DNA of 64,000 nucleotides from NCBI GenBank assembly GCA_913060655.1, contig CAJXTG010000003.1, forward strand, positions 1-64,000, read 5' to 3'. Numbering within the stretch: position 1 is the stretch's first letter; every line of letters starts with the position of its first letter. Source of the stretch: an uncultured Nitriliruptoraceae bacterium (GTDB lineage Bacteria > Actinomycetota > Nitriliruptoria > Nitriliruptorales > Nitriliruptoraceae). A program made the translations under genes and the position numbers. Shown one piece after another: positions 18,936 to 25,851 of this stretch. The notes below the pieces were generated by a model that saw only the letters and a list, made by a program, of their open reading frames with translations, searched no databases and was not told where the DNA came from.

Positions 18936-21311
18936 GTGGGAGCACTCGGCACGCACGAGATGACCGTCGACATCGACGGCAAGCAGTTCACCTTCGAGGC
19001 GGGCAAGATCGCCGCCCAGGCCGGCGGGGCCGTCATCGTCTCGCTCGGTGACACCAAGGTCCTCACCACCACGACCGCGTCGCGCAGCCCGAAGGAGTCC
19101 CTGGGCTTCTTCCCCCTGACCATCGAGGTCGAGGAGCGCATGTACGCGAACGGCCGCATCCCCGGCTCGTTCTTCAAGCGGGAGGGTCGCCCCTCCGAGA
19201 ACGCGATCCTCACCTGCCGGCTGACGGACCGCCCCCTGCGGCCGACGTTCGCCGACGGGCTGCGCAACGAGGTCCAGGTCGTCAACACGGTCCTGCAGAC
19301 CGCGCAGTTCGACCCCTACGACGTCGTCGCCATGAACGGCGCGTCGCTCGCGACGATGATGGCCGGCATCCCCTTCGACGGGCCGGTCGCCGCCATCCGC
19401 TACGCGATGCTGCGCGACGGCTCCTGGGTCGCGTTCCCGTCGTTCGAGGAGCTCGCCGAGGAGGCCGTGTTCAACATGGTCATCGCCGGCCGGGTCGAGG
19501 ACTCCGGTGAGGTCGCCATCCTCATGATCGAGGCGGAGGCGACGCCGGAGGCGGTGCTGCACATCGAGATGGGCGCACCGGCCCCGACCGAGCAGGTCGT
19601 CGGCGAGGCGATCGAGCAGGCGAAGGGGCTCATCCGCGAGCTCTGCGAGGCGCAGCAGCGCTTCGTCGACGTCGCGGGCGTCCGTGACGCCGGCGAGTTC
19701 GCCCTGTTCGTCGACTACTCGTCCGAGGTGTTCGACGCCGTGTTCGACGCGGCCGCCAAGGACGTCGAGGCGGTCTACCGCGACGCGTCGCTGGGCAAGG
19801 AGCTGCGCGACGAGAAGCTGGGGGAGATCCGGGCCGAGGTCGTGGACCGGGTCGTCGCCGCCGGGGTCGCCGGGGTCGACGAGTCGGCGCTGCCCGGCCA
19901 GGCCCGCGAGGCGTTCCGCTCGGTCGAGAAGAAGGTCGTCCGTCGGCTGATCGTCACCGACGGCTTCCGCGTCGACGGGCGTGGGCCCAAGGACCTGCGC
20001 CCGGTCTCCGCGGAGGTCGGCCTGCTCCCGCTGACGCACGGCTCCGCGCTGTTCACCCGCGGCGAGACCCAGGTGCTGTCGGTCCTCGCGCTGGGCACCA
20101 CGCGTGAGGGGCAGCGGCTCGACACCCTCGACCCCGAGGCCGAGAAGCTGTACATGCACCACTACAACATGCCGCCTTACTCGACCGGTGAGACCGGCCG
20201 GGTCGGCTCGCCGAAGCGGCGTGAGATCGGCCATGGCCTGCTCGCCGAGCGTGCGATCGTCCCCGTGCTGCCGAGCACCGAGGACTGGCCGTACGCGATG
20301 CGCGTCGTGTCCGACATCATGAGCTCCAACGGCTCGACGTCGATGGGCTCGGTGTGCGCGTCGTCGCTGGCGCTCATGGACGGTGGCGTGCCGACGCACG
20401 CGCCGGTCGCGGGCATCGCGATGGGCCTCGTGCACGAGGACGGGAAGTACACGACGCTGACCGACATCCAGGGCGTCGAGGACTTCTACGGCGACATGGA
20501 CTTCAAGGTCGCCGGTCCGGAGGGCTTCATCACCGCCCTGCAGCTCGACACGAAGCTCGCCGGCATCCCCGCGCAGGTGCTCGCCGACGCGCTCCTGCAG
20601 GCGCGTGACGCGCGCCTGGAGATCCTCGGCGTGATGAACGCGGCGCTGGACGCGCCGCGTCCGGAGGTGGCCGCGAACGCTCCGCGCGTCGAGGTCATCC
20701 ACATCCCGCAGGACAAGATCGGCGAGGTCATCGGCCCGCGCGGCAAGATCATCAAGGAGCTGGTCGAGGAGACCGGCGCCCAGATCGACGTCGACGAGGA
20801 GGCCGGCCGCGGCGTCGTGAAGATCTACGCGACGGGTGCCGAGCAGGCGACGGCGGCCCGCGACCGCATCAACGCGATCGCGAACCCGACGCTGCCCGAG
20901 GTGGGCGAGCGCTACCAGGCGACGGTCGTGAAGACCGTCGACTTCGGGGCGTTCGTGTCGCTCACGCCCGGCATCGACGGGCTGCTGCACATCTCCGAGC
21001 TCGGCAAGATGGCCGGCAAGCGGCTCGACCACTCGGAGGACGCCGTCAGCGTCGGCCAGCAGGTGCTGGTCGAGGTGAAGGAGGTCCTCGAGGGTGGGCG
21101 TCGCTTCAAGCTCGAGTACGTCGGCGAGAAGGCCGAGCCCGCCGAGGGTGCCGACCGTCCGCGTGGCGGTGGGGACCGTGGCGGGGAGCGTCGCGGCGGG
21201 GACCGCGGCGGCGAGCGTCGTGGCGGGGACCGTGGCGGGGAGCGTCGCGAGCGGTCCGGGGACGGCGAGGGCCGGACCCGCAGCCGCAGTCGGAGCCGCT
21301 CCCGGGACTGA
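18936..21311 (+). CDS. pnp: Polyribonucleotide nucleotidyltransferase (PNPase) with an RGG/RS-like tail
   Basis: Phosphorolytic 3'-5' exoribonuclease acting in mRNA decay. The 791-residue protein has two RNase PH-like domains (about 15-560; EVEERMYANGRIPGSFFKREG in the first, MSSNGSTSMGSVCASSLALMD in the second). A KH domain (EVIGPRGKIIKELVEETG) and an S1 domain (YQATVVKTVDFGAFVSL) follow. The last 60 residues are a disordered tail with three GGDRGGERR repeats and a run of Arg-Ser dipeptides, longer and more repetitive than is common. GTG 18936 follows the near-ideal site AAGGAGG at 18922-18928. A terminator follows. Confidence 0.96.
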   Translation: MGALGTHEMTVDIDGKQFTFEAGKIAAQAGGAVIVSLGDTKVLTTTTASRSPKESLGFFPLTIEVEERMYANGRIPGSFFKREGRPSENAILTCRLTDRPLRPTFADGLRNEVQVVNTVLQTAQFDPYDVVAMNGASLATMMAGIPFDGPVAAIRYAMLRDGSWVAFPSFEELAEEAVFNMVIAGRVEDSGEVAILMIEAEATPEAVLHIEMGAPAPTEQVVGEAIEQAKGLIRELCEAQQRFVDVAGVRDAGEFALFVDYSSEVFDAVFDAAAKDVEAVYRDASLGKELRDEKLGEIRAEVVDRVVAAGVAGVDESALPGQAREAFRSVEKKVVRRLIVTDGFRVDGRGPKDLRPVSAEVGLLPLTHGSALFTRGETQVLSVLALGTTREGQRLDTLDPEAEKLYMHHYNMPPYSTGETGRVGSPKRREIGHGLLAERAIVPVLPSTEDWPYAMRVVSDIMSSNGSTSMGSVCASSLALMDGGVPTHAPVAGIAMGLVHEDGKYTTLTDIQGVEDFYGDMDFKVAGPEGFITALQLDTKLAGIPAQVLADALLQARDARLEILGVMNAALDAPRPEVAANAPRVEVIHIPQDKIGEVIGPRGKIIKELVEETGAQIDVDEEAGRGVVKIYATGAEQATAARDRINAIANPTLPEVGERYQATVVKTVDFGAFVSLTPGIDGLLHISELGKMAGKRLDHSEDAVSVGQQVLVEVKEVLEGGRRFKLEYVGEKAEPAEGADRPRGGGDRGGERRGGDRGGERRGGDRGGERRERSGDGEGRTRSRSRSRSRD

Positions 21312-21458: not shown

Positions 21459-22271
21459 ATGACGCTGCGCGTGGGGATCATCGGGGTCGCCGGCCGGCTC
21501 GGGTCCGTGCTCGCCGCCGGTCTGGACGCTGCGGACGGGCTCGAGCTCGTCGCCGGGGTCTCGCCGGCCCACGCGGGGCGGCCGCTCGGTGACGTCGTCG
21601 GGGCGCTGCCGGAGGGCGCCCCCGCTGCGGCGACACCGGTCGGCGCCGACCTCGACGCACTGCTGGACGCCGGCGTCGACGTCGCCCTGGAGGTCACCGG
21701 TCCGGCGACGGTCGGCACCCACCTGCGCTGGCTGCTCGAGCACGGCGTCCACGCGGTCGTGGGTGCCACCGGCCTGAGCGATGCCGACCTCGACGCCGCC
21801 CGCGCGCTCGCGGCGGCGTCACCCGCCAATGCGGTCATCGCACCGAACTTCTCCCTCGGTGCGGTGCTCGTGGAGCGCTTCGCGGCGGAGGCCGCCCGGC
21901 ACCTGCCGCACGTGGAGATCGTCGAGCTCCACCACGACGGCAAGGTCGACGCGCCGTCGGGCACGGCGATCGCGACCGCCGCCGCCGTCGCGCGGGCGCG
22001 CGGTGACGACGCGCCCGCGCCGGCCGGCACGTCGGGACCGGCGGTCGTCGACGGTGCACGCGGCGCGACCGTGCACGGCGTCCCCGTCCACGCCGTGCGG
22101 CTGCCCGGGCTCGTCGCCCACGAGGAGGTCCTCCTCGGCGGTGAGGGACAGCTGCTGACGTTGCGGCACGACACGACCGACCGGTCCGCGTTCGTCGCCG
22201 GCGCGGTGCTCGCGTGCCGACGGGTCGGCGACGTGGGCGGGGTGGTCGTGGGGCTGGGCGAGCTGCTCTGA
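21459..22271 (+). CDS. dapB: 4-hydroxy-tetrahydrodipicolinate reductase
   Basis: Second committed step of the diaminopimelate/lysine pathway, using NAD(P)H. The 270-residue protein shows a Rossmann start (VGIIGVAGRLG), the GATG-type segment VVGATGLSD, APNFSLGAVL, and the catalytic ELHHDGKVDAPSGTA with its His-His and Lys. ATG 21459 follows GGAGGGAGGA at 21445-21453. dapA (27.6 kb) and dapF (45.9 kb), which act before and after it, are on the same segment but in separate units. Confidence 0.96.
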   Translation: MTLRVGIIGVAGRLGSVLAAGLDAADGLELVAGVSPAHAGRPLGDVVGALPEGAPAAATPVGADLDALLDAGVDVALEVTGPATVGTHLRWLLEHGVHAVVGATGLSDADLDAARALAAASPANAVIAPNFSLGAVLVERFAAEAARHLPHVEIVELHHDGKVDAPSGTAIATAAAVARARGDDAPAPAGTSGPAVVDGARGATVHGVPVHAVRLPGLVAHEEVLLGGEGQLLTLRHDTTDRSAFVAGAVLACRRVGDVGGVVVGLGELL

Positions 22272-22341: not shown

Positions 22342-23985
22342 GTGGCGACCGACCAGCCCACCGAGCACGCGCCCGTCGACGACGCCGACGCAGCGGCCGC
22401 CGACCACTACGTCGAGGCGCTGCGTCGCTTCCGCGGTGACGTCCGGATGATGGAGCAGGTCCTCGCGACGATGATCGAGCGGGGCGAGCCGCGCACCGCC
22501 GAGCATCTCGAGCTGATGCTGGACGAGTACCTCGCCGGTCGTTCCCTGCGCAAGGCCCGCGCGATCATCGAGCAGCTCGACCTGCTCGGCGTCCACCTCG
22601 ACCCGGCACGCCAGTACGAGGTCGCGCTGGCCACCGCGACCGCCGGGAGCGCCGGCGAGGCGCTCACCGTCATCGACCGGCTCCTCGGGGAGCAGCGGGA
22701 CCCCGCCCCCGCGCAGGCGCCCGTCGTCCTGGACCTGCTCGTCGGCGCCCGCCGGACCCCGCAGGCGTGGTCGCTGTTCCGGCGCATGCGGGCGCGCGGG
22801 CAGGCCCCCAGCCGCGACGCCCTGCTGCACCTCCTCGCGGACGCCCTGCGTCGGCGGGCCGCGAAGGACTCCGTGGCGGTCGTCGCCGCCCTGCGCGCGG
22901 CGGGACATCGCCTCCCCGACGGCCGTGGCGGCGCGATCGTGCGCATGCTCACCGCCGCCGGTCAGCTCGACCGGGCGCTCGAGGTCCTCGACCATCTCGA
23001 GGCCGCCGCCGCCGACGGGACCGGCGCACCTCCGGGCGACGACGTCGTCGGGCAGGTGCTCGAGGCGCTCGCGGCGCAGGGGCGCGTCGACGAGGTCCAC
23101 GCACGGCTGGCACCGCTGGTCGACGCGGGGCGGCCGCTGTCGGGGCACCAGCGCAACCTGCTCCTCGGCGCGCGGATCGCCGCGGGGGACCTCGACGCGG
23201 CGTGGGCGGACGCCGAACGCATGTGGGCGGAGGCGTGCCTGCCGACGGGGCGCAACCTCGAGGCGCTCCTCGACCTGACCCTCGCCGCCGGCAACGTCGC
23301 GCGGGCCGCGGGGGTGCTGGACCTGCTCCTGCTCGTCGGCGTCCCCGTCGGCGCACCCCGCAGCGGTGCGGTGCTGCGCGCGGAGATGGCCGACGGGGGG
23401 CTCGACCGGGTGCTGCCCGTCGCCGCCGAGCTGCTGGACCGCGAGCTCGTGTTCGACCGCTCCGCCGCCCGTGATCTCGTGGAGCGGCTCGTGCGGGCAC
23501 GGCGGCTCGACGACGCGCGCGCGTGGCTCGAACGGTTCCGCACCGCCGGCACCCTCACGCAGGGGCGCAGCTACGGGTCCCTGCTCGGGGCGCTCGTCGC
23601 CGCCGGCCGCGTCGACGACGCGCTCGGCCTGCTCGACCACATGGTCGCGCACGGGGTGCGGCCGGAGCGGGCCGACGTCGCCCGGCTGGTGACGGGACGG
23701 CTCAAGGCGGGCGACGTGGCGACGGCGGAACGGCTGGTGACCGCTGCGGCCTCCGCCGGGGCGCACGCGGACGAGGCGACGCTGCGTGAGCTGCTGTGGA
23801 CCCACGCCCGTGCGAGCGACGTCGCCGGGGTCGACCGGGTGCTCGACCTGCTGCGCGCGTCGGGGGTCACGCCCGACGAGCGCCACGACAAGGCGCGTGC
23901 CTGGGCCTCCGGGGCGACGCCCCGCCGGCTGGAGGACACCACCACGCCGGCGTCGGACCCCGCCGCGTCAGACGGGGCCGGCTGA
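22342..23985 (+). CDS. Pentatricopeptide-repeat-like alpha-solenoid protein
   Basis: 547 residues, almost wholly built of about twelve helix-turn-helix repeats of 34-36 residues (roughly 55-515). The clearest unit (about 408-441) reads RSYGSLLGALVAAGRVDDAL, then GLLDHMVAHGVRPE. Similar units start near 127, 233, 268, 303, 373, 442 and 478. The 35-residue period and endings such as GVRPE, GVTPD and GVHLDP match PPR rather than TPR consensus. PPR proteins bind single-stranded RNA, mostly in organelles, and are rare in bacteria. No catalytic domain, signal peptide or membrane segment is visible, so a cytoplasmic RNA-binding role is inferred. GTG 22342 has GAGGGA upstream. The 3' end overlaps the opposing ABC gene by 18 bases. 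A degenerate TPR-like scaffold is the alternative. Confidence 0.7.
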   Translation: MATDQPTEHAPVDDADAAAADHYVEALRRFRGDVRMMEQVLATMIERGEPRTAEHLELMLDEYLAGRSLRKARAIIEQLDLLGVHLDPARQYEVALATATAGSAGEALTVIDRLLGEQRDPAPAQAPVVLDLLVGARRTPQAWSLFRRMRARGQAPSRDALLHLLADALRRRAAKDSVAVVAALRAAGHRLPDGRGGAIVRMLTAAGQLDRALEVLDHLEAAAADGTGAPPGDDVVGQVLEALAAQGRVDEVHARLAPLVDAGRPLSGHQRNLLLGARIAAGDLDAAWADAERMWAEACLPTGRNLEALLDLTLAAGNVARAAGVLDLLLLVGVPVGAPRSGAVLRAEMADGGLDRVLPVAAELLDRELVFDRSAARDLVERLVRARRLDDARAWLERFRTAGTLTQGRSYGSLLGALVAAGRVDDALGLLDHMVAHGVRPERADVARLVTGRLKAGDVATAERLVTAAASAGAHADEATLRELLWTHARASDVAGVDRVLDLLRASGVTPDERHDKARAWASGATPRRLEDTTTPASDPAASDGAG

Positions 23986-25851
23986 CGCCGGCTGCAGCTG
24001 GGTGCGGACGAGCTCCGCGTAGCGGCCGTCCGCGGCGAGCAGCGTCGTGTGGGTGCCGCGCTCGACGATCCGACCGGCGTCGAGCACGACGATCTCGTCG
24101 GCCTCGACGACCGTCGACAGCCGGTGGGCGATGACGAGCGCGGTGCGGTCGGTCAGCGCGTCGCTGAGGGCCTGCTGCACCAGACGTTCGCTGCCCGCGT
24201 CGAGGTGCGCCGTCGCCTCGTCGAGCACGACGATCGCGGGGTCGCGCAGCAGCATCCGTGCGATCGACAGCCGCTGCTTCTCCCCACCGGAGAACCGGTA
24301 GCCGCGCTCCCCGACGACGGTGTCGTAGCCGTCCGGGAGGCGCGCGATGGTGTCGTGGATGCGTGCCGCGCGGGCGGCCGCGACGAGCTGCTCGTCGGTC
24401 GCGTCGGGACGCGCGTAGCGCAGGTTCGCCGCCACCGAGTCGTGGAACAGGTGCGGGTCCTGGCTGACGACCCCGATGGCGGCCCGCAGCGACTCGAGCG
24501 TGAGGTCGCGGACGTCGTGGCCGTCGACCGTGACCCGCCCCTCGGTGACGTCGTAGAGGCGGGGGAGCAGCGACGCGAGCGTCGACTTCCCCGCGCCGGA
24601 CGGGCCGACGAGCGCGACGGTCCGCCCCGGTGCGATGTCGAGGTCGACGTCGATGAGCACGTCCGTCCCGGGCTCGTCCGCATGCGGCGTCGCCGGCCCC
24701 TCGAGCGAGGCGAGGCCGACGCCCTCGCCGGCCGGGTAGCGGAAGCGCACGTGCTCGAGGCGCACGTGCCCGCGCGGGGCGTCCAGCTCCGTCGCGTCGT
24801 CCCGCTCGGTGATGCTCGAGCGCAGGTCGAGGACCTCGAAGACCCGCTCGAAGCTGACGAGCGCCGTCATCAGGTCGACCCGTGCGTTCGACAGCTGCGC
24901 GAGCGGCCCGTACAGCTGCGTCACGTACAGCCCGAGCGCGACGACCGTGCCGACCTGCACCTCGGGGTCGGTGATGACGACCCGGCCACCGACGAGGTAG
25001 ACGAGCGCCGTCGCGATCGAGCCGACCAGGCCGAGCGCGGCGAACAGCGCGCGGCCGTGCAGCGCCGTCCGGACGCCGATGCGGGCCACCTGGTCGGCCC
25101 GTCCGTGGAACGTCGCGGCCTCGTCGTCGATGCGGCCGAAGAGCTTCACGAGCAGTGCCCCCGACACGTTGAAGCGTTCCGTCATCGTCGAGTTCATGTC
25201 CGCGTTGAGCGCCATCGACCGTCGTGCGAGGTCCTGCAGACGGCGGCCGACGATGCGGGCCGGCACGACGAACAGCGGCAGCAGCGAGATCGCGAGCAGC
25301 GTGACCCGCCAGTCGAGCGCCGCCATCACGGTGATGGTGACGGTGACGCCGATGAGGTTGTCGACGATGCCGCCGAGCGTGCCGGTCAGCGCCCGCTGTG
25401 CGCCGATGACGTCGTTGTTGAGGCGGGTGACGAGCGCGCCCGTCTGCGTGCGGGTGAAGAACGCGATGGGCAGGCCCTGGACGTGGCGGTACAGGCGGGA
25501 GCGCAGCTCGAGGATGAACCCCTCGCCGATCGTCGCCGACAGGAGGCGCTCGACCATCGACAGCACGGCGACCAGCAGCGCGACGGCCACGAGTCCCCCC
25601 GCGAGCGTCCACAGCAGGCCGAGGTCCTCCTCGGGGATGGCGCGGTCGATGATGAGCCGGATCAGCTGCGGCGGGGCCGCGGAGATGACCGAGATCGTGA
25701 CGATGAGCCCGACGTAGCCGAGGATCCGCCAGCGGTAGGGGCGGGCGAGCCGGACGGCGCGCCGGGCGACGGTGCGGTCGAAGCGGCGGTCACGGGCCTC
25801 GTCGCGCGCCGACGACGCGCCCATCATCATGCCCATCATCGGGTGCTGCAT
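23968..25851 (-). CDS. ABC exporter, fused membrane and ATPase domains (MsbA/multidrug type)
   Basis: 627 residues forming a half-transporter that should dimerise. The first 340 residues hold six transmembrane segments with the coupling-helix region FFTRTQTGALVTRLNND. The ATPase domain has Walker A GPSGAGKST (416-424), signature FSGGEKQR, Walker B with LDEATAHLD, and the H-loop VIAHRLST. Substrate cannot be read from sequence; lipid-like or drug-like molecules are usual. The N-terminus MQHPMMGMMMG is remarkably Met-rich. ATG at 25851 has GGAG upstream; longer readings overlap the divergent ThyX-like gene. It is convergent with, and overlaps, the PPR-like gene. Confidence 0.9.
   Translation of the reverse strand: MQHPMMGMMMGASSARDEARDRRFDRTVARRAVRLARPYRWRILGYVGLIVTISVISAAPPQLIRLIIDRAIPEEDLGLLWTLAGGLVAVALLVAVLSMVERLLSATIGEGFILELRSRLYRHVQGLPIAFFTRTQTGALVTRLNNDVIGAQRALTGTLGGIVDNLIGVTVTITVMAALDWRVTLLAISLLPLFVVPARIVGRRLQDLARRSMALNADMNSTMTERFNVSGALLVKLFGRIDDEAATFHGRADQVARIGVRTALHGRALFAALGLVGSIATALVYLVGGRVVITDPEVQVGTVVALGLYVTQLYGPLAQLSNARVDLMTALVSFERVFEVLDLRSSITERDDATELDAPRGHVRLEHVRFRYPAGEGVGLASLEGPATPHADEPGTDVLIDVDLDIAPGRTVALVGPSGAGKSTLASLLPRLYDVTEGRVTVDGHDVRDLTLESLRAAIGVVSQDPHLFHDSVAANLRYARPDATDEQLVAAARAARIHDTIARLPDGYDTVVGERGYRFSGGEKQRLSIARMLLRDPAIVVLDEATAHLDAGSERLVQQALSDALTDRTALVIAHRLSTVVEADEIVVLDAGRIVERGTHTTLLAADGRYAELVRTQLQPASAGPV

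Follow-up and report, generated by a model that had tools for sequence, protein, structure and literature searches.

The window, the whole 64,000-nucleotide stretch of Nitriliruptoraceae DNA analysed here, carries a gene for a 547-residue protein of the pentatricopeptide repeat (PPR) type, flanked by dapB and an ABC transporter gene. The features of this region are as follows:

18963..21311, + strand: pnp (polynucleotide phosphorylase), the start of the ancestral pnp-dapB-thyX-dapA-rnj cluster.
21459..22271, + strand: dapB, co-directional with and 70 bp upstream of the PPR gene.
22342..23985, + strand: PPR-solenoid protein gene of Nitriliruptorales, 547 aa, GTG start, single-copy in the genome.
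22393..23877, + strand: 14 tandem PPR-type hairpins (residues 18-512), delimited by AF2 helices, the 35-aa register, orthologue unit lengths and Pfam PPR, PPR_2 and PPR_long matches.
22342..22392, + strand: disordered N-terminal leader (residues 1-17), variable among aligned orthologues (AF2 pLDDT < 50 for residues 1-19).
23458..23877, + strand: repeats 11-14 (residues 373-512), the proposed RNA- or partner-binding half, on the basis of conservation, charge and K/R at position 13.
23878..23931, + strand: C-terminal cap (residues 513-530; ERHDKARAWASGATPRRL), delimited by alignment and conservation.
23932..23982, + strand: Pro/Ala/Glu low-complexity tail, short in the window protein and up to ~280 aa in relatives.
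23968..25851, - strand: ABC transporter, fused permease-ATPase, convergent on the PPR gene (gene end approximate).

The open reading frame agrees exactly with that called in the sequence-only reading, in position, strand, start codon and length, and the neighbour-like codon use and G+C noted there were confirmed (GC3 0.94; CAI-like index 0.81, against 0.75-0.89 for the neighbouring genes). As the opposite-strand ABC transporter gene converges on it, the PPR gene is the last of its direction. Promoter/terminator and Rfam scans gave no result.

Self-comparison of the window protein peaks at a lag of 35 residues, with a mean BLOSUM score of -0.03 against a best-lag null of -0.55 +/- 0.05 (shuffle maximum -0.38; n=500), some 10 SD above the shuffles, and 35 is likewise the top self-similarity lag in 20/20 orthologues, which bears out the period near 35 residues first read from the sequence. 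Two shuffled copies of the window protein matched no repeat family in Pfam, ruling out an artefact of low complexity or alanine richness. The AF2 model, built from an alignment of five sequences, is an all-helical solenoid (mean pLDDT 86; pTM 0.67) of 14 helix-turn-helix units spanning approximately residues 22 to 506, followed by a capping helix (residues 513-523) and disordered at both ends. The repeat array described previously therefore stands, while its count of about twelve gives way to 14 full hairpins plus the cap helix. With boundaries set so that helix b begins at repeat position 17, the units start at residues 18, 53, 88, 123, 158, 193, 233, 268, 303, 338, 373, 408, 443 and 478. The sole break in register is a five-residue insertion at the end of repeat 6, which is restricted to the window's genus and is four residues long in the most divergent member of that genus. 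Nearly every unit in the other orthologues is exactly 35 residues long, and in most orthologues this holds for the full set of 14. The protein is thus composed of 14 PPR-type hairpins in a strict 35-residue register with a highly conserved C-terminal cap. Beyond the cap, orthologues carry Pro/Ala/Glu-rich tails of ~15 to 280 aa (e.g. L042:505-2949:-), those of the window's genus being among the shortest.

The earlier proposal of a PPR-type solenoid is borne out by both the sequence profile and the predicted fold. The window protein matches the Pfam models PPR_long (2.3e-16), PPR (2e-10) and PPR_2 (1.7e-9) above their cut-offs, while every TPR model remains sub-threshold, and scores 67 bits against NCBIfam TIGR00756 (cut-off 20); current NCBI models would probably label it a PPR protein, so that the motif is not a hidden one. 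All 20 orthologues match PPR models, the best being PPR_2 at 1.8e-36, compared to 2.8e-14 for the best TPR match. Of the 49 PDB sequences matched by the family profile, every one is a PPR protein or a designed PPR. The repeats furthermore show the positional hallmarks of PPRs (L/I/V/M7, 94%; M/L27, 91%; G31, 82%; P34, a fraction of 0.49) and virtually none of those of TPRs (G8, 0%; A27, 3%; P32, 1%). The predicted geometry is also PPR-like: the AF2 hairpins have the helix spacing of designed PPRs, in which the helices span positions 1-14 and 17-30 (PMC4837458), and Foldseek ranks 1-38 are occupied by PPR proteins, PPR-bearing organelle complexes or designer PPRs, including RNA-bound dPPR, PPR10, plant mitoribosome rPPRs, the plastid polymerase protein PAP2, LRPPRC and mS39, with the first TPR subunit of the APC/C at rank 39. 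Whole-model TM-scores against solved PPRs are low (0.2-0.55), probably because the pitch of the superhelix differs. A TPR, SEL1 or HAT identity can be rejected, PPR profiles being clearly better in the Pfam and PDB comparisons. Throughout, f1 denotes the window's family, f2 the other family of the order Nitriliruptorales and f3-f5 the other three families of the class. A TPR protein of f4 (L069), included as a positive control, showed the opposite preference (TPR_14, 5.6e-11; PPR_2, 0.0097), and the other weak PPR-profile matches inspected in the phylum, in families f4, f9 and f15, were TPR or unrelated proteins. Comparison with eukaryotic PPRs was made solely through Pfam, NCBIfam and the PDB.

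In designed PPRs the RNA base is chosen by residues 5 and 35 of each repeat and the phosphates are met by Lys13; seven 5/35 pairs (ND, NN, NS, TD, TN, SN and SD) have been validated experimentally, and loss of the position-13 residue abolishes RNA binding by dPPRs (PMC4837458). The sequence-only reading had raised the question of whether residues 5 and 35 follow this code. They do not: validated pairs occur in 0/14 units of the window protein and in 0-5/14 units of its relatives, most of which have 0-3, and plant-type modular base reading is therefore not expected. The window protein is a PPR protein by fold and motif, and fails to be one by the canonical code.

Other features of the solenoid are nevertheless patterned. 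Among the 35 positions, position 5 is the one whose diversity between repeats most exceeds that within repeats; it differs from repeat to repeat while remaining constant between species, although the difference from the other exposed positions alone is not significant (p = 0.09). Position 35 does not stand out in its conservation (p = 0.37). Exposed positions on the inner face are more conserved than those on the outer face (entropy 1.51 v 1.79; p = 0.004). Repeats 10-13 have inner faces that are net positive, with net charges of +3.5 and +1.9 for repeats 11 and 12, respectively, and those of repeats 1, 2, 5 and 7-9 are net negative. A lysine or arginine at position 13 is found in repeats 11, 13 and 14 in 19/20 orthologues and in repeats 3, 6, 7 and 10 in 14-15/20, and is rare elsewhere; in the window protein it is present in repeats 5, 11, 13 and 14 only. 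Repeats 11-14 are mostly well conserved, repeat 13 less so, and the cap is the most conserved segment of the family (entropy 0.68), with a consensus of E/D-E/D-R-H-x-K-A-x-x-W-A-x-G-x-T-x-R-R-L and invariant residues R514, H515, A518, W521, A522, G524, T526, R528 and L530. The position 5 pattern, the conservation of the inner face and the positive C-terminal face with its K/R13 residues together suggest that the inner groove holds a ligand.

Judging from sequence and the predicted model, we lean modestly towards this ligand being RNA: the protein would be a non-canonical RNA binder, probably of structured RNA, with a role in RNA maturation, folding or protection. As a constitutive RNA-binding factor, its right-handed solenoid would hold the RNA on the inner helix-A face of repeats 11-14 and against the basic/aromatic cap. 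K/R at position 13 would contact the phosphates, and the repeat-specific, species-fixed residues at position 5 would make site-specific contacts independently of the plant N/S/T plus D/N/S code. By analogy with ribosomal PPRs and PRORP, the target is more likely to be one or a few conserved cellular RNAs than a large set of mRNAs; rRNA, tRNA and a conserved leader are examples of such targets. The effect on the target would be one of maturation, folding or protection, since the protein has no catalytic domain.

The main rival is that the PPR-fold solenoid binds a protein rather than RNA, in the manner of a TPR scaffold (e.g. as an assembly factor or regulator), which we consider somewhat unlikely. 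The missing 5/35 code, the acidic-to-neutral pI (6.5 for the window protein and 5.8-7 for most relatives, none of which suggests a protein that is basic overall) and an inner face that is mostly negative in the N-terminal half all suit such a scaffold and count against RNA binding. The conserved groove and cap would suit any ligand, and the inner-face and position 5 conservation is equally expected of a protein-binding solenoid; the lack of significance for position 5 alone and for position 35 and the low TM-scores to solved PPRs also weigh against the RNA-binder reading. Against a protein scaffold, however, stand the repeat hallmarks, the structural relatives, all of which are PPR rather than TPR proteins, the K/R13 residues and the positive inner face of repeats 10-13.

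That the protein is instead a canonical P-class PPR, using residues 5 and 35 to read single-stranded RNA one base at a time, is improbable, although the PPR fold itself and the repeat-specific yet species-conserved position 5 would fit. In the family consensus, repeat 13 carries SD and repeat 8 NT, and one orthologue (L039) has five validated pairs; however, none of the seven validated pair types occurs in the window protein, most relatives are scarcely richer, and residues such as R, W, E, G and P occupy position 5 in several repeats. The residue table thus largely refutes this reading, and with the code residues absent from it, no target could be read out by the canonical code.

The genomic context bears on a third alternative. 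The gene was placed between pnp and rnj, which is correct, with dapB intervening on the pnp side and the opposite-strand ABC transporter, thyX and dapA on the rnj side. On every contig of sufficient length, the PPR gene comes after dapB in the rpsO-pnp-dapB series, and beyond it there is usually the opposite-strand ABC gene and then thyX-dapA-rnj; in the deepest members (f2 and genus g2) and in the window's genus, dapB and the PPR gene are immediate neighbours. The rpsO-pnp-dapB-thyX-dapA-rnj cluster is, however, also present in f3-f5, where it lacks the PPR gene, as in L138, in which thyX lies 133 bp after dapB with no PPR gene between them. Most likely, therefore, the PPR gene entered a cluster that already existed, and as this cluster is older than the insertion, the position is no evidence of function. 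The proximity of the two RNA-decay genes, previously taken as a functional hint, consequently loses its weight, and a functional link drawn from it was rejected. An RNase Z gene is located head-to-head with the PPR gene at approximately ten loci of sister genera (e.g. L030:9985-10896:+ and L037:12317-13231:+).

This pairing, the PRORP PPR region (PF17177, PPR_long) as the best single Pfam model and the lack of a recognizable RNase Z in the window genome could suggest a dedicated role in tRNA 3' maturation with RNase Z, or substitution for a missing tRNA processing enzyme. We regard this as very improbable. No true RNase Z gene was found in the four genomes of the window's genus (g1), or in g2 or g3, all of which keep the PPR gene, and the pairing is secondary and younger than the PPR gene; in f2 RNase Z is present, away from the PPR locus. 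A partnership with RNase Z was rejected on these grounds. Substitution for RNase P is ruled out by the ordinary RNase P RNA of the window genome, and the window protein contains repeats, cap and low-complexity tail only, with no NYN nuclease domain. tRNA 3' processing in the streamlined genus of the window may proceed by another route.

The family profile finds the PPR gene once per genome in 30/35 f1 genomes and in the sole f2 genome (28-30% identity), and in 0/30 genomes of f3-f5. All five f1 genomes that lack it also lack a dapB match, and the locus is therefore probably missing from these assemblies, although two of them belong to one genus (g6), in which there may be a real loss. PPR protein distances track those of dapB (r = 0.89; 17 loci) and pnp (r = 0.86; 12 loci), these tree and distance comparisons being based on small samples. 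The dN/dS values against two congeners are ~0.22 and 0.30, and on these ratios the gene is under purifying selection. Judged by orthology and synteny throughout the order, it is a single-copy, vertically inherited and fixed feature of the Nitriliruptorales. The sequence-only reading of a native gene, and its suggestion that relatives be searched for conservation at this locus, are thus answered alike by the single copy, the one syntenic site beside dapB, the divergence in step with dapB and pnp and the local codon use. A recent transfer from a eukaryote, without a settled function, is refuted by the same synteny, distance tracking, dN/dS and codon use, as patchy distribution, foreign codons and the lack of a fixed locus are all absent, and its probability is negligible; an older transfer, at the base of the order, may have taken place. 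The f2 genome additionally contains a broken partial copy (L041:5384-6109:-), ~2 kb from the intact gene and beside a run of N, which is either a duplicate that has decayed or an artefact of scaffolding. In the window's genus, genomes (including the window genome, G000) are ~1.7 Mb in size, compared to 2.3-5.6 Mb elsewhere in the family, and retain the PPR gene.

Among characterized systems, the closest in profile and fold are the P-class PPRs of plant organelles and the designer dPPR and cPPR proteins (PPR10, dPPR-U10), which share the strict 35-residue hairpin register and the signature L7, G15, A20, M/L27, G31 and P34. The window protein differs in being bacterial and present in one copy, in lacking the 5/35 code and an overall basic character, and in its distinctive invariant cap. 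High-ranking structural and profile relatives also include mitoribosomal mL102/rPPR5 and mS39/PTCD3, plastid PAP2 and LRPPRC. PPRs bound to ribosomes or polymerases often have no readable code and are structural RNA or protein binders; these are, however, organellar and eukaryotic, while for the bacterial window protein an association with ribosome or polymerase is not indicated. PRORP (protein-only RNase P) binds structured tRNA rather than reading single-stranded RNA, but unlike the window protein it has the NYN nuclease and far fewer than 14 repeats, and the window genome keeps its RNA-based RNase P.

PPR proteins are RNA-binding factors regarded as almost confined to the organelles of plants and protists. 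Prokaryotes "do not typically possess" PPRs, and the motif has been called "exclusively eukaryotic" (PMC4029402). The few bacterial PPRs reported as of 2010 were from Ralstonia solanacearum, Rhodobacter sphaeroides and Legionella longbeachae, the last with two (Llo1404 and Llo2643) described as eukaryotic-like proteins of the pathogen (PMC2824747). These share with the window protein the presence of PPR motifs in a bacterium, but are species-restricted, whereas the window gene is order-wide, syntenic and single-copy in apparently free-living hosts. No report of a PPR in Nitriliruptor or other actinobacteria was found in the open-access literature searched. A second actinobacterial group, family f22 (8/11 genomes), encodes proteins of ~1000 aa containing 10-14 PPR motifs that are unusual in having 32 residues (VTYNTLISKAPDYETAREWLGAMRQEGITPN), at loci L110:1-2976:- and L111:544-3612:+ and in genomes G084, G098, G111, G143, G192, G221 and G393. 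Code position 5 is N in most of their units, with N/D towards the end, which is closer to the canonical code than the window protein comes, and their ~200-aa N-terminal region has no Pfam match other than a weak, non-significant one to uridylate cyclase. They are not orthologues of the window protein.

The Nitriliruptorales protein is new in being vertically conserved across its order, in its fixed array of 14 units, in lacking the code and in its cap. As a bolder and rather unlikely extension, the PPR architecture may have been recruited by, or have arisen in, bacteria as a housekeeping RNA factor that reads a conserved RNA through a non-canonical position 5 and a new cap. If this is true, PPR-based RNA recognition would not be an exclusively eukaryotic invention with sporadic transfers. 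By keeping a single PPR gene at a fixed locus, even where the genome is as small as 1.7 Mb, these organisms offer a simple bacterial system for the role of a long-established single PPR, in which it can be asked how RNA might be recognized when the plant code is absent, and one that bears on the direction in which PPRs have moved between the domains of life.
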